Shown here piece by piece: positions 4,463-38,021 of a DNA stretch of 64,000 nucleotides; the stretch's first letter is position 1, and every line of letters starts with the position of its first letter. Made by a program: the position numbers and the translations under genes. Source of the DNA: Halogeometricum sp. S1BR25-6 (lineage in GTDB: Archaea > Halobacteriota > Halobacteria > Halobacteriales > Haloferacaceae); assembly GCF_031624495.1 (NCBI RefSeq), contig NZ_JAMQOP010000001.1:744001-808000 (forward strand), written 5' to 3'. The notes beneath the pieces were generated by a model that was given only the letters and a program-made list of their open reading frames with translations, did no database searches and had not been told where the DNA came from.

Positions 4463-4903
4463 AGTTCGGAGGGTGTCGGTCGACGTCGAACGCGTTCGGT
4501 CGGTGTACGAAGGCGGTCGACGGTCAAGGCTTTGGTGGCTGTGCGCTCTCGAATCGGGTTGCCCGCCGTCGAACCCCGTGCCGACCGCGTGCTCCGCGGC
4601 GAAGCGGTCGTCGACGAACAGAACGTCGTCGGTGTCGAACGTCGGCGGGTCGACTCGGTCCTCCGCACTGGGGTCCGCGCCGAAGCCATTCGTACCCTAT
4701 CCGTCGAATCGTATCCGCGAATAACGGGTGGTTTACACGCGATTCGGTCGTGCGACGCCGCGAGACGGCCCGGCGGCGCTCCGCCGACGCTCGGCGCAAG
4801 CGGCCGTTACCGGCTGCGCCGGTAACGTAAGATTGGGTTAAACTCCGCTATACAGGACAATACTCATACCCTTCTCTTTCCATTGTGCGCTCAGTTGATT
4901 GAC
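4463..4903. other. Intergenic region between the lipid kinase and DUF7344 genes
   Basis: About 440 bases between divergent genes. Short reading frames on both strands are Arg/Ser-rich shadows without coherent protein features. An AT-richer stretch at about 4830-4880, just before the DUF7344 start, probably holds its promoter. Nothing else is seen. Confidence 0.5.
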
Positions 4904-5227
4904 ATGCAGGACGAAAACGTCTGGCAGTCCGTCTGTAGAGCCCTCGGCGATAAGACTCGTCGGCGCGTGCTGGTTGCGCTCTTGGAACTCCCGGACGCCG
5001 ACGACACGCTACGTGTGCCCGAGGATGTTCACGAGGGCGACCGAGACGAACGGAAACTGGAGACGGCGCTGTACCACAACCACCTCCCGCTGTTAGAGCA
5101 GGCTGGCTACGTTCGGTGGGACCCGGACGCGGGTCGGGTCGGCGTCGGCGACGACTTCGGGGAGATTCGGCCGGTGCTCCGACTCCTCCACGACAACCGA
5201 GCGGACCTCCCGGACGACTGGGTCTGA
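4904..5227 (+). CDS. DUF7344-type winged-helix protein
   Basis: The 107-residue protein reads MQDENVWQSVCRALGDKTRR.... It includes RRRVLVALLELPD and LYHNHLPLLEQAGYVRWD, the core of a haloarchaeal winged-helix domain (DUF7344) thought to bind DNA. A TTG codon 21 bases upstream could add seven residues, but the ATG at 4904 gives the usual N-terminus. Oddly, the last 74 coding bases (5143-5216) recur exactly at 9481-9554, beside a glucosidase relic. No neighbour shows its target. The family is known for small single-domain regulators; the role here is unproven. Confidence 0.82.
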   Translation: MQDENVWQSVCRALGDKTRRRVLVALLELPDADDTLRVPEDVHEGDRDERKLETALYHNHLPLLEQAGYVRWDPDAGRVGVGDDFGEIRPVLRLLHDNRADLPDDWV

Positions 5228-5718
5228 CTCGAATCTACCTCGAATCCGGACGGGGGCCGGCCGCCACCGTATAAACACCGTTCGAACACGGCACGTGAAT
5301 TGGTATGCGTGCGTCCCGTCACTCATACGCCCATCGGGGGGAGCCGCTTCGGTCCGCGACGGATCGATCGGCGCAGGCTTCCCCGCTGGTGGACGGCGGT
5401 TCGACCTCGAAGAGCACGCGCCCGACACCGCCAATACGCGGCTTCCCGTCGCATCCCCCGCGATTTCACCCTTCCGACAGTGCACGACGAAATGCGACGA
5501 GGAGCAACCGGTTCGCTCCCGGGCGACGGACGAGCGCCGCCGACCGCGCTCGACACCGCCCGTAACGGAACTGATCGGTTCGCCTCGACGCAGTTCGCGG
5601 CGACCCACTTCGAGAACGTCGTCGAGACCAAGGGCTTCCCATCGCGACGGAGACGGCCGCGCCCGATTCCAATGATACAGCAACACAACTGCGACCGAAC
5701 GAGTACGAGAGGGCACGA
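5228..5718. other. Intergenic region upstream of the formate dehydrogenase gene
   Basis: About 490 GC-rich bases. Several short frames are open on both strands, but none has the acidic composition or motifs of the real neighbours. It may be decayed coding DNA. No feature is supported. Confidence 0.4.
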
Positions 5719-8097
5719 ATGAGCGACCAGCACCCGGACGAGACGAACTCCGAGGAGAAATCCGGCGTCGCGGGCTACATGGCCCAGGCGAAGGAGATGG
5801 CCGAGTCCGCACAGGAGCGAGGCGAGACGACCCCGGACCACGGGTCCGACGAGGGGCACAGCGGTCCGTTCGCGCCGGCCGAGCACCTCGCGGAGTCGTT
5901 CGCGGCCAACTCCATGTCGGAGGGGCGCCTCTTCGACGTGGCGGACGCCGTCAGCGACTACCGGATGAACGACGTGGACGTGACCGACACCACCTGCGGC
6001 TACTGCGCCGTCGGCTGTCGGTTCGACGTGCTCTCGAAGGACGACGAGGTGTTGGGAATCCGGCCGAACGCCGAGAAAGCCCCCGTCAACGGTATCTCGA
6101 CGTGCGTGAAGGGCAAGTTCAGCTACGGCTACGCCGACGACGAGGACCGCCTGACGACGCCGCTCATCAAAGAGGACGGCGAGTTCCGAGAGGCGTCGTG
6201 GGACGAGGCGCTGGACCGCGTCGCCGAGGAACTGCAGGAGACGAAAGACGAGTACGGCCCCGACGCCCTCGGACTCGTCTCCTCTTCGCGGACGTCGAAC
6301 GAGGCGAACTACCTGATGCAGAAGCTGTCACGCCAGATTCTCAAGACCAACAACATCGACAACTGCAACCGCCTCTGTCACTCGCCGACCGTCGCGGGCC
6401 TCTCGCAGACGGTCGGGTACGGCGCCGGGTCGGTCGGCACGGAAGCCTTCAACGACACGGACTGCTATCTCATCACGGGGTCGAACACGACCGAGTCCCA
6501 CCCCGTTCTCGCCACCGACATCAAGCAGAACCTCAAGGAGGGCGCCGAGGCGTACGTTTTCGACCCCCGGAAGGTGCAGATCGCCGAGCACGCGACGCAG
6601 TACGCCCGCGTCACGCCCGGTTACGACACGGTCTGGATCAACGGCATGATCCGTCACATCCTCGAGGAGGACCTGCAGGACGACGAGTTCGTCGAGAACC
6701 GGACCGTCGGCTTCGAGGAGGTGAAGGAGGGCGTCGAGAAGTTCACGCCCGAGTTCGTCGAAGAGCACGCGGGCGTCCCGCCGGAGCAGTTGAAGAACGC
6801 GGCCGAGGCCGTCGCCACGGCGGATAGCTGCATGTTCTGCTGGACGCTCGGGCTGACCGAGCACAGCCACGGGACGGAGAACGTCGTCTCGATGGCGAAC
6901 CTCGCCTTGGTGACGGGCCACGTCGGCACCGAGAAGTCGGGGCTGGCGCCGTTCCGCGGGCAGAACAACGTGCAGGGCGGCGGCGGCGACATGGGCCCCG
7001 TCCCGGGGAACTTCCCCGGCTACCAGAAGGTGACCGACGACGACGTCCGCGAGAAGTTCGAGGACTACTACGGCGTCGACGACCTGCCGGACGAGGTGGG
7101 TCTGACCATCACCGAGCAGTTCCTCGCCGCCGACCGCGGCAACATCAAATCGATGTTCGTCGAGGGGGAGAATCCCGTCTACTCCGAACCGAACGTCGAC
7201 CACGCCGAGGAGATTCTCGAGGACCTCGACTTCCTCGCCGTTCAGGACATCTTCCTGACGAAGACGGCCGAGTACGCCGACGTGGTGCTCCCGGCGACGG
7301 GTCACGTCGAGACGAACGGGACGTACACGGGGACGACCCGCCACGTCCAACTGGTCAAGCGCGCCGTCGACCCGCCGGGCGAGGCGAAGCCCGACTGGGT
7401 CATCACCCAGGAACTCGCCGAGCGCTTCGGGTTCGAGTGGGACTACGACTCGCCCAGCGACATCATGGACGAGATAAACGACCTCACGCCCATCTACGGC
7501 GGCGTCACGCACGAGCGACTCGAAGACGGCGAGGAGCTGCAGTGGCCCGTCTGGGACGAGGACCACCCGGGGACGCCGCACCTCTACGAAGAGCAGTTCA
7601 ACACGGCCGACGGGAAGGCCCACATGTTCCCCACCGATATCTCCGGTCCCGCCGAACGCGACATGGACGACGGCGACTACCCGATCAAACTGACGACGGG
7701 GCGCGTCCTCTACCAGTACCACACGGGGACGATGACGAACCGCGAGGAGGGTATCCGCTCGTACACGGACGAGTTGTTCGTCGAAATCAACCCCGAGACG
7801 GCCGAATCGCTGGGCATCGCCGACGAGGACCCGGTTCGCATCTCCTCGCGCAAGGGCGAGATAGAGGCGATGGCGCAGGTGACAGACCGCATCGGGCCGG
7901 ACGTGGTGTTCGTTCCGATGCACGTCCTCGGCGACGGCAGCGACGTCGTAAACGAACTGACGGACGAGAGCCACCTCGACGAGCAGGCGCACGTGCCGGA
8001 GTTCAAGGTGACCGACGTGAAGGTGGTGCCGCGGGACCGCCCCACGGCCGTCGACGACGACGCGAACACGTCGAGCCCCGAGAGCGCCGACGACTGA
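5719..8097 (+). CDS. Formate dehydrogenase alpha subunit (molybdopterin oxidoreductase, Cys type, 792 aa)
   Basis: This is a bis-MGD molybdo/tungsto-enzyme. A [4Fe-4S] motif is formed by Cys93, Cys96, Cys100 and Cys129, followed by VKGKF, whose Lys131 relays electrons in FdhF-type enzymes. NCNRLCHSPTVAGL places Cys220 and His221 where E. coli FdhF has selenocysteine and histidine, so this is a Cys-type formate dehydrogenase. The C-terminal molybdopterin dinucleotide-binding domain includes RVLYQYHTGTMTNR. The expected reaction is formate to CO2 plus two electrons. An acidic 85-residue N-terminal extension precedes the Fe-S domain. There is no Tat signal, so it should be cytoplasmic. No beta or NAD-binding subunit gene is adjacent. 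The gene stands alone, so the electron acceptor is unknown. Confidence 0.9.
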   Translation: MSDQHPDETNSEEKSGVAGYMAQAKEMAESAQERGETTPDHGSDEGHSGPFAPAEHLAESFAANSMSEGRLFDVADAVSDYRMNDVDVTDTTCGYCAVGCRFDVLSKDDEVLGIRPNAEKAPVNGISTCVKGKFSYGYADDEDRLTTPLIKEDGEFREASWDEALDRVAEELQETKDEYGPDALGLVSSSRTSNEANYLMQKLSRQILKTNNIDNCNRLCHSPTVAGLSQTVGYGAGSVGTEAFNDTDCYLITGSNTTESHPVLATDIKQNLKEGAEAYVFDPRKVQIAEHATQYARVTPGYDTVWINGMIRHILEEDLQDDEFVENRTVGFEEVKEGVEKFTPEFVEEHAGVPPEQLKNAAEAVATADSCMFCWTLGLTEHSHGTENVVSMANLALVTGHVGTEKSGLAPFRGQNNVQGGGGDMGPVPGNFPGYQKVTDDDVREKFEDYYGVDDLPDEVGLTITEQFLAADRGNIKSMFVEGENPVYSEPNVDHAEEILEDLDFLAVQDIFLTKTAEYADVVLPATGHVETNGTYTGTTRHVQLVKRAVDPPGEAKPDWVITQELAERFGFEWDYDSPSDIMDEINDLTPIYGGVTHERLEDGEELQWPVWDEDHPGTPHLYEEQFNTADGKAHMFPTDISGPAERDMDDGDYPIKLTTGRVLYQYHTGTMTNREEGIRSYTDELFVEINPETAESLGIADEDPVRISSRKGEIEAMAQVTDRIGPDVVFVPMHVLGDGSDVVNELTDESHLDEQAHVPEFKVTDVKVVPRDRPTAVDDDANTSSPESADD

Positions 8098-33442: not shown

Positions 33443-34243
33443 GTGAACCCGAGTCGCGTCGACTCTCTCGTCGACCTGACCTACGGACTGTTGATCGCGG
33501 TCTCGGTCGGACTGATCGTCGTCGCCGGGAACGCCATCGGGTTGGCGTTCGGATTCGGGGTGCTGGTCTCCTACGTTCTCCACGTCGTCTGGAAGATGGC
33601 TCGTTTCGACCCGAACTGGATGACGACGGCGGTCAAGGAAACCGTCGAAGAGACGGTCAACGAAACCGTTGAGGAAACAGTCGAGGAGACGGTCGGAAAA
33701 ACCGTTGAGGAAACGGTCAACGAAACCGTTGAAGAGACAGTCGAAGAGACGGTCGGAAAAACCGTCGACGAGACAGTGGAGAAAACGGTCGAGGAGACGG
33801 TAGACGAGAAGGTCGGGGAGACAGTAGAGAAAACAGTCGGCGAAACCGTCGAGAAGACGGTCGGGGAGACGGTGGAGAAGACGGTCGAGGAGAAAGTGGG
33901 CGAGACGGTGGAAAAAACGATGGACGAGAAGGTCGGAGAGACGGTGGAGAAAACGGTCGGCGAAACCGTCGAGAAAACCGTTGGCGAGACAGTCGAAAAG
34001 ACAGTCGAGGAGAAAGTGGACGAGACAGTGGAGAAGACCCTCGAAGAACAGCGTGCGGCCGAGAGGGCGGACGGCGAGGTAGAGACGGCCACCGAGGACG
34101 ACGAAATGGACACGGCCCCCGAGGATGATGAGGTGAAGAAAGTTGCTGAGGACGACGAGGAGGACGGGGCCTCCGAGGACGCCGAAGAGAAGGCCACCGA
34201 GGACGACGAGGCCGACAAGGACGACGATACAGAGAATCGATGA
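33443..34243 (+). CDS. Membrane protein with a 34-unit tetrapeptide (xxTV) repeat, coupled to a phosphate permease (266 aa)
   Basis: The GTG start is followed by two membrane helices (about residues 12-29 and 31-51), then WKMARFDPNW. Residues 65-200 are 34 consecutive four-residue units, almost all of the form [E/D/G/N/K][E/K][T/K]V, such as EETV, GETV and EKTV. The acidic tail (205-266) is Glu/Asp-rich. The regular Val every fourth residue predicts one long, highly charged helix, possibly an oligomeric stalk on the cytoplasmic side. The stop overlaps the start of the PiT permease gene (ATGA), so the two are co-translated. A regulatory or scaffolding role for the permease is inference. I know of no described family. 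Confidence 0.85.
   Translation: MNPSRVDSLVDLTYGLLIAVSVGLIVVAGNAIGLAFGFGVLVSYVLHVVWKMARFDPNWMTTAVKETVEETVNETVEETVEETVGKTVEETVNETVEETVEETVGKTVDETVEKTVEETVDEKVGETVEKTVGETVEKTVGETVEKTVEEKVGETVEKTMDEKVGETVEKTVGETVEKTVGETVEKTVEEKVDETVEKTLEEQRAAERADGEVETATEDDEMDTAPEDDEVKKVAEDDEEDGASEDAEEKATEDDEADKDDDTENR
33635..34042 (+). repeat. Coding 12-bp tandem repeat, 34 degenerate units
   Basis: Each 12-base unit encodes one xxTV tetrapeptide. Units differ at third positions and at the first two residues, so the array is not a recent pure expansion. Higher-order blocks recur, for example GETVEKTV several times and DEKV/EEKV at intervals. It lies fully inside the 266-residue gene. Confidence 0.9.
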
Positions 34244-35418
34244 CCAGCCTCCTACTCGTCGCTGGCGTTCTCGTCGCGATGTTCGTCGCATACAATATCG
34301 GAGGGTCGACCACGGGGCCGGCGTTCGGGCCGGCCGTCGGGGCCGGCGCAATCTCCAAACCCGTCGCCGCAGGGCTGATGGGCGTGTTCTTTTTCATCGG
34401 TGCTTGGACGCTGGGTCGGAACGTCGTAACGAAGCTCGGCACCGAGTTGGTCGTCGACCCCGGTATCTTCACGCTCGAATCGTCTATCGTGGTGCTGTTC
34501 TTCATCGGAATCGCACTGCTGGTCGGGAACCTCTTCGGCGTCCCGGCCTCGACCTCGATGACCGCCGTGGGGGCGATCGCCGGCCTCGCGCTGGCCGGCG
34601 GGGTGTTGGATTTCGCCGTGATGGGACAGATCGTCGTGTGGTGGGTCGTCTCGCCCATCATCGGCTTCTGGGTCTCGTTGATCATCGGCCGGTACTTCTA
34701 CGCACGGCTGAACGGACTGATCGCGATAGAGCGCAGCACGGGACCCCTCCTCGACCTCGACCGATCCGGCGTCGTCCCCGTTCCGCGGGTTCACCGAACG
34801 ACCAACCGTCGGGAGCTGGTCGGGACGTTTACCGTCGTCGCGATCGGCTGTCTGATGGCCTTCTCTTCCGGCACCTCGAACATCGCCAACGCCGTCGCAC
34901 CGCTGGTCGGCAGCGGCGAACTGGCCATGAACCCGGCCATCGTCCTCGGCGGTATCGCCGTCGCCATCGGCTCGTTCACCATCGCTCGACGAACCCTGGA
35001 GACGATGGGCAGCGACCTCACGGAACTACCCCTCACCGCGGCCATCGTCGTCGCGTCGGTCTCCTCGACGCTGGTCGTGTTCCTCTCGGCGCTCGGCATC
35101 CCCGCGAGTTTCGTCATCATCGCGACCATGTCCATCGTCGGGCTGGGGTGGGGCCGAGCGACCCGACCGATGACCGGTTCCGAGATAGTCGCTGGCGAGG
35201 GCGGGGCACCGATTAGGGTCGACGCGCTGGCAGCCGAAAGAGAGGGTGAGACGCTCCCCCCGATCGGCGCGGAGGACGCCGATGACATCCCCGATCCGGG
35301 GGCGTTGTTCAAGCCCGTGATGACCGCCCGGGTCGTCCTGATGCAGAACGTCGTGCCGGCCATCGCGACGGCCGGTGCCTATCTCACGTTCCGGTTCGTC
35401 CCGATATTCGGGTTCTGA
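34240..35418 (+). CDS. PiT-family inorganic phosphate (or related anion) permease (392 aa)
   Basis: A polytopic protein of about ten helices. The two PiT signature repeats are present: FVAYNIGGSTTGPAFGPAVG-type N-terminal motif with GNLFGVPASTSMTAVGAIAG, and FSSGTSNIANAVAPLVGS in the second half, with LGIPASFVIIATMSIVGLGW. PiT carriers use proton or sodium gradients to import phosphate. The central loop is short, and the loop near residues 310-360 is acidic. The start overlaps the stop of the repeat protein gene by ATGA. No PhoU-like gene is adjacent. The unusual repeat protein occupies the place where a PhoU-like (DUF47) regulator often sits. Confidence 0.92.
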   Translation: MTSLLLVAGVLVAMFVAYNIGGSTTGPAFGPAVGAGAISKPVAAGLMGVFFFIGAWTLGRNVVTKLGTELVVDPGIFTLESSIVVLFFIGIALLVGNLFGVPASTSMTAVGAIAGLALAGGVLDFAVMGQIVVWWVVSPIIGFWVSLIIGRYFYARLNGLIAIERSTGPLLDLDRSGVVPVPRVHRTTNRRELVGTFTVVAIGCLMAFSSGTSNIANAVAPLVGSGELAMNPAIVLGGIAVAIGSFTIARRTLETMGSDLTELPLTAAIVVASVSSTLVVFLSALGIPASFVIIATMSIVGLGWGRATRPMTGSEIVAGEGGAPIRVDALAAEREGETLPPIGAEDADDIPDPGALFKPVMTARVVLMQNVVPAIATAGAYLTFRFVPIFGF

Positions 35419-37015: not shown

Positions 37016-37166
37016 CTCGACGGAGAGATTCGAGATCAGAGGCGTGGAGCTCGTGGACTGACGGACTCGCTCGCCGAATCGGTCCGTTCGTTCCGATCGT
37101 CCCCGCCACCGCTCCCGGGGGGTCACCACCGAGCGCCTTATTCGAGTCCGTCCCTTGACACTGGTG

Positions 37167-38021
37167 ATGGCTACAGTCTCCCGTAACGAGCCGACGCCGT
37201 CGCCCGGCGCCCCGCCGGAGTCCGGAGAGGCGTGCGTCCTCTGGCACCGGCGCAACCTCCGCCTCGCCGACGACCGAGCGGTCGAGTACGCGACGGCGAA
37301 CTACGACACCGTCTGTCCCCTGTTCGTCTTCGACCCGCGGTTCTACGGGGCGAACGGTCTCGCCTGCGACGCCCGACTCCGCTTTCTTCACGAGTGTCTG
37401 GTTGACCTCGAAGACCGGTACGCGGAGGCGGGGACGACGCTGCTCTACACCCACGGGTCGCCAATCGACGTCCTCGACTCGTTCCTCGACGCGGGGTGGG
37501 ATATCGTGGTCAACAGGGAGGCGACGGGGCGGTACGGGAAGGAGCGAGACGACGCCCTCGTCGCCCGCGAGGGGGTGCGGTTCGTCGACGACGACGGCAT
37601 CCGGTACGGGCAGTCCGACCGGGAAGGATGGCAGGACCACGCGGAGGCGTACTTCGAGGACGAACCAAACCGCCCGCACGAGTCGGGATTCGGAACGCAC
37701 GGGCTCTCGACGACGGTCGATACCGACGCCATCGAGCGCGAGTACGACGTTTCACCGTCGAAGACGGGCATCTCGACGGGCGGCGCTGGACACGTTCAGC
37801 GACCTTCGTGAGGAGTCCGAGGCGGCGATGCGAGAGTCCGCGGTGTTCCGGCGGGCGTCGCTGTCGCCGAAGAATCGAAATATCGTCGAGCAGACGGCGG
37901 ACCGGACGGCCGAAGACGGGAAACTGACGAGTCGGCGGCGGGTTCCGACTCCGGGTCGACGGACGGGCAGACGGGATTCGATCAGTTCGTCTCGGAGCGG
38001 TAGCCGGTCTGCGCGTAGGTG
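37167..38021 (+). pseudogene. phr: Truncated, frameshifted deoxyribodipyrimidine photolyase
   Basis: The intact frame from ATG 37167 to TGA 37811 gives 214 residues: VLWHRRNLRLADDRAVEYAT, PLFVFDPRFYGANGLACDAR and NREATGRYGKERDDALVARE. These are the N-terminal antenna-chromophore domain of class I photolyases. VSPSKTGISTGG is where the FAD-binding domain should follow, but the frame shifts and soon ends. The next frame continues briefly (ALDTFSDLREESEAAMRESA) without any of the FAD/DNA-binding motifs. At least 240 residues of catalytic domain are missing. DNA repair by this copy is therefore impossible; a full-length photolyase probably exists elsewhere. Confidence 0.8.

Follow-up and report, generated by a model that had tools for sequence, protein, structure and literature searches.

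In other prokaryotes, PiT permeases often have a DUF47 protein as their partner; DUF47 proteins are soluble and have neither a transmembrane hairpin nor four-residue repeat units (tetrads). In the permeases themselves, the aspartates of the signature motifs are reported to be essential for phosphate transport, with Gly and Asn standing in their place in the CysP sulfate permease of Bacillus subtilis (PMC5840216). Two kinds of long helix also serve here as points of comparison: single alpha-helix (SAH) domains, i.e. long, highly charged lone helices with Glu-Lys pairs at i,i+4 (PMC5347031, PMC5812594), and coiled coils, helices whose short repeats (heptad 3.5, hendecad 3.67, pentadecad 3.75) each have one hydrophobic position. 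The periodicities accessible to coiled coils extend up to ~3.9, with 3.8 as the most extreme known and 4.0 outside the range (eLife survey, PMC4786415).

Hairpin and permease genes of the window

The window is a stretch of 64,000 nucleotides from Halogeometricum sp. S1BR25-6 (contig NZ_JAMQOP010000001.1, positions 744,001 to 808,000), and coordinates given without a locus handle refer to it. A first-pass annotation, made from the letters alone, had described two N-terminal helices, 34 tetrads at residues 65-200, a Glu/Asp tail and an ATGA overlap with a PiT gene. This architecture was confirmed in the ORFs 33443-34243 and 34240-35418, whose features are as follows.

33443..34243, + strand: tetrad-repeat hairpin protein (GTG start, 266 aa)
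33449..33604, + strand: two-helix transmembrane hairpin, residues 3-54 (AlphaFold2 helices, pLDDT ~80)
33590..33625, + strand: conserved exit motif WKMARFDPNWMT, residues 50-61 (invariant columns in a 29-row alignment)
33635..34042, + strand: 34 tandem tetrads (GETV, EKTV, EETV, DEKV and others), residues 65-200 (predicted helices 57-123 and 128-210)
34055..34240, + strand: Glu/Asp-rich tail, residues 205-266 (mostly disordered by prediction)
34240..34243, + strand: ATGA overlap of the tetrad-gene stop and the permease-gene start
34240..35418, + strand: PiT-family (PF01384) permease with a CysP-like substitution pattern (ATG start, 392 aa)
34297..34320, + strand: first PiT signature, IGGSTTGP (TmPiT, IGANDVAN; Asp lost; 6L85 alignment)
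34864..34890, + strand: second PiT signature, SSGTSNIAN (TmPiT, SHGANDVAN; Asp replaced by Asn; 6L85 alignment)

A gene overlap of -4 or -1 recurs among relatives of this pair. The second ORF belongs to the PiT family (PF01384 PHO4, E 6.9e-41; 140.8 bits against a gathering threshold of 33.7), and the repeat protein matches no Pfam or NCBIfam model. Its weak Pfam hits (DUF445, with 19.6 bits where 33.8 is the cut-off; Ty5 gag; EcsC) were rejected as compositional, since they fall below cut-off and are confined to the repeat. Elsewhere in the window, a short ORF of 218 aa (37155-37811) resembles by eye the N-terminal part only of a DNA photolyase and is possibly truncated.

Within the array, the fourth tetrad residue is V in 32 of the 34 units (M and L in one each). 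T occupies the third position of 30 units, the remaining four being DEKV or EEKV units. TRF found periods of 12, 24, 60 and 120 bp in the DNA, and the longest exact repeat spans 32 aa as peptide vs only 20 bp as DNA. Identical tetrads agree in their codons at a rate of 0.51, where independent codon choice would give 0.46. Such near-independent codons and short DNA repeats point to an array that is old and has been maintained as protein sequence, not to a fresh expansion, and recent slippage was ruled out by this codon scrambling together with the wide conservation reported below. The first-pass annotation had considered a specific permease role unlikely if the repeat number stemmed from one recent DNA expansion in a single strain; the scrambled codons and the widespread family speak against such an expansion. 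We also observed that the rare Thr codon ACA makes up 8 of the 30 Thr codons in the array, compared with 4% in five neighbouring genes; this enrichment at 33635-34042 looks like codons scrambled against recombination.

A haloarchaeal family tied to one PiT clade

The N-terminal 72 residues were found, at one copy per genome, in 105 of the 148 genomes of the window's family (Haloferacaceae). A 29-row hairpin profile matched 238 of the 341 genomes sampled across the class Halobacteria, representing 62 of 81 genera, and none of the other-class genomes in the phylum-wide sample. The hairpin has 15 invariant positions, among them those of WKMxRFDPxWM; the exit-motif residues W50, K51, M52, R54, P57, W59, M60 and T61 are all invariant in the 29-row alignment (A1), and the N-terminal VNPSRVD start is kept in homologues. 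The pattern of a V every four residues is conserved too (N-terminus in >200 genomes; tails read in ~90), the tails read being charged with units such as xxTV, xxEV, xxSV and xxKV. The comparison of repeat number among relatives that had been proposed earlier shows that the array is no one-strain curiosity: its length varies from ~5 to 67 units and the period persists, the shortest array (L069) being one interrupted by a frame change. No published description of this family was found in the open-licence literature; the tetrad hairpin proteins are an undescribed family of small haloarchaeal membrane proteins. Halobacterium salinarum DSM 3754 carries both the hairpin protein and its paired PiT.

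About 70% of homologues adjoin a PiT-family gene, either downstream or divergent. Among 80 named loci, PiT lies directly downstream in 41 and divergently in 16, is absent from the fetched flank in 21, and is cut off in two; the same two arrangements were found in a further genome sample. A tree built from 131 PiT proteins places every linked PiT in one 104-row clade (SH-aLRT 99), with the exception of that of L092, which lies 601 bp from its tetrad gene and outside the main clade. Same-strand and divergent arrangements each occur in more than one sub-clade. One tight-overlap sub-clade spans several taxonomic families with the partner kept in each, a distribution consistent with joint transfer of the two genes. 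In linked pairs, hairpin and PiT distances correlate (Mantel r 0.83, kinship ignored). At one locus (L208 in G166, ~4537-5765), the divergent PiT adjoining the tetrad gene carries an internal TAG, is split between frames and looks broken; a 2Fe-2S ferredoxin gene was also repeatedly seen near PiT genes (L172 and L174, Fer2 by Pfam; L152 and L154, by eye).

Across the 148 Haloferacaceae genomes, with PiT-clade membership set by a score threshold, protein and PiT clade are both present in 102, both absent in 39 and discordant in seven (Fisher p 1.5e-27, kinship ignored); three of the discordant genomes (G051, G072 and G082) are incomplete. Presence and absence of the pair are both seen within nine genera, and in Haloferax (genus g28) one genome out of 15 has both genes and the other 14 have neither. 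Where the tetrad protein is unlinked, as in Halorubrum and others, the matching PiT was in most cases found elsewhere in the genome. Neighbours of unlinked loci include Trm1 with an amino-acid permease, aspartoacylase, and Usp with a 2-oxoacid dehydrogenase E2, and no alternative neighbour shared by these loci was found. Genomes with several type-A PiTs have extra hairpin proteins nearby, one of them short-tailed. Type-A-like PiTs without a hairpin protein also occur, both in Haloferacaceae (G006, G020 and G093) and in other families of the order (G163, G215, G221, G232, G188, G196 and G234). This partner is thus no strict requirement for the permease, which can exist alone.

A sister family, defined by a GRQTQF...GYFLRVWENM hairpin and remotely related (E ~1e-4 to 1e-5), bears V-tetrads as well. 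A PiT gene adjoins it in all 12 of its best loci, representing at least two PiT subtypes, including a third subtype. Beside two outgroup PiTs, we further found hairpin proteins with another type of tail.

L140 and L191-L203: sister-family loci
L172, 2096-3013, + strand: hairpin protein with a heptad-type tail, (VEQTADE)n, beside an outgroup PiT
L173, 4366-5067, - strand: hairpin protein with a related coiled-coil tail, beside an outgroup PiT

The heptad-tailed proteins of L172 and L173 are possible analogues of the tetrad protein, and their position suggests that any helical stalk is what is wanted. Overall, the permease link drawn by the first-pass annotation is upheld by adjacency in two orientations, co-occurrence where the genes are unlinked, matching duplicates and the sister family's own PiT neighbours. 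Its caveat, that common homologues without a neighbouring PiT gene would weaken a specific role, holds in part: about a quarter to a third of homologues are unlinked, but most such genomes hold a matching PiT elsewhere.

Substrate of the linked permease

The label of phosphate permease given to the second ORF is probably wrong, as both signature Asp residues are lost in a CysP-like manner. Compared with the Thermotoga PiT (6L85), neither GANDVAN signature has its Asp, and this holds through the whole clade; the window permease thus lacks the Asp in both halves that marks PiT phosphate transporters. Its best NCBIfam model is CysP (NF053884), at 153 bits and below the equivalog cut-off of 400. 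Like the B. subtilis CysP sulfate permease, it is a member of the PiT superfamily with Asn in place of the second signature Asp, whereas the first is Thr here and Gly in CysP. Sulfur-amino-acid genes (Meth_synt_2; Cys_Met_Meta_PP) adjoin some loci, and most loci are without such neighbours. From the Asp losses, the published role of these residues, the best-scoring model and the sulfur-gene neighbours of some loci, sulfate or another oxyanion is favoured over phosphate as the substrate; that sulfate itself is carried stands at about even odds. As a separate observation, two type-A-like PiTs without an adjacent hairpin gene (L139 and L144) lie beside genes for Cys/Met-metabolism PLP enzymes, a hint of sulfate transport.

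Shape and possible role of the tetrad tail

AlphaFold2 modelled the window protein as hairpin helices at residues 3-28 and 30-54 and stalk helices at 57-123 and 128-210, with 211-266 left without structure (pTM 0.26; mid-stalk pLDDT <50), and gave a comparable picture for a short-tailed relative (pTM of the models 0.23-0.26). A beta structure of the repeat was discarded, as AlphaFold predicts helix instead. Calculated for the array, the hydrophobic moment has its maximum (1.92) at exactly 90 degrees per residue and falls almost to zero (0.05-0.14) at 98-103 degrees, so that a straight alpha helix would have no continuous hydrophobic face. A supercoil tracking the Val row at the 4.0 period would make one turn per ~39 residues, with a computed pitch of ~59 A. 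The helical models and the period of 4.0 agree with the first-pass proposal of a helical tail distinct from the heptad coiled coil, and a four-residue period does produce the twisting Val stripe that it had envisaged.

The tail resembles coiled coils in being helical by prediction, with one hydrophobic position per short repeat, but differs from them in its moment and in its period, which lies beyond the canonical 3.5-3.8. Opposite charges at i,i+4 number 1272 vs 918 +/- 20 in unit-order shuffles, an enrichment of the kind expected of a single alpha helix, part of which may come from tandem higher-order repeats and common ancestry. As in SAH domains, the tail is long, highly charged, predicted to be a lone helix and provided with i,i+4 Glu-Lys pairs; unlike them, it is half Thr-Val in most units, keeps a strict four-residue period and is strongly acidic rather than balanced in Glu and Lys/Arg. 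A charge-stabilised single-helix rod would fit the tail better than a coiled coil. A sequence search of the PDB gave no match to the hairpin profile and only chance-level matches to the array.

We lean, without much to spare, towards the tetrad protein being a dedicated membrane-anchored accessory subunit of the haloarchaeal CysP-like PiT permease. Within the membrane, its hairpin would contact the permease, and both termini would be cytoplasmic, as suggested by the positive residues of the exit motif. The tetrad tail would form one long alpha helix of ~150 residues and ~20 nm, stabilised chiefly by Glu-Lys pairs at a spacing of four residues and by rows of Val and Thr along its axis. Such a stiff acidic stalk could space, cluster or regulate the permease, and overlapping translation would keep both subunits in step. 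Given how much the array varies in length, a spacer or brush-like role is more plausible than that of a precise ruler.

Clustering might also be achieved by the tail acting as an oligomerisation device, with tetrad helices in a tightly twisted right-handed bundle and the Val stripe inside. This would agree with Val occupying the fourth position in 92% of 2653 units and with the peak of the moment at 90 degrees per residue, and the heptad-tailed proteins beside outgroup PiTs (L172, L173) indicate that a coiled coil seems acceptable there. However, a 4.0 period, which would demand a pitch of ~59 A, is beyond the accessible periodicities (PMC4786415) and the PDB search returned nothing meaningful, which leaves this arrangement unlikely. 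It would be a long shot for the array to be an oligomeric helical assembly at 4.0 residues per turn that serves, across haloarchaea, as a variable-length cytoplasmic scaffold clustering or gating anion permeases. The protein might alternatively function on its own, as a membrane stalk or as an acidic brush in the cytoplasm, and in some lineages do no more than share promoters with permease genes, as the roughly one quarter of named loci that are unlinked and lie beside unrelated genes could suggest. Yet unlinked genomes mostly retain the matching PiT clade, and the pairing is seen repeatedly, in either orientation as well as in the sister family, making such independence quite improbable.

The first-pass annotation had proposed that the protein may replace PhoU. 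DUF47/PhoU-like accessory proteins (PF01865) are likewise helical and encoded beside a PiT-family gene, and the pairing of PiT with DUF47 in other prokaryotes lends some appeal to a comparable regulator, whose helical tail would sense ions or energy state and gate a phosphate permease. No PF01865 gene is present anywhere in the window's genome, and DUF47 is missing from 25 of 31 haloarchaea tested. It is, however, equally missing from genomes without the tetrad protein, so its absence is general among these haloarchaea and the replacement is unproven. The tetrad protein, moreover, has a transmembrane hairpin and tetrads and shares no sequence relation with PhoU or DUF47 (neither PF01865 nor PF01895 matched in its Pfam scan), and the permease lacks the signature Asp residues on which phosphate transport is reported to depend. 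A PhoU-like regulator is accordingly a very doubtful reading.

A family present in most sampled haloarchaeal genomes and tied to one anion-permease clade predicts a new accessory subunit, and makes the label of phosphate permease doubtful for the linked PiT clade as a whole. Its natural tetrad helices, of ~5 to 67 units, offer material with which to ask whether helices assemble at 4.0 residues per turn.
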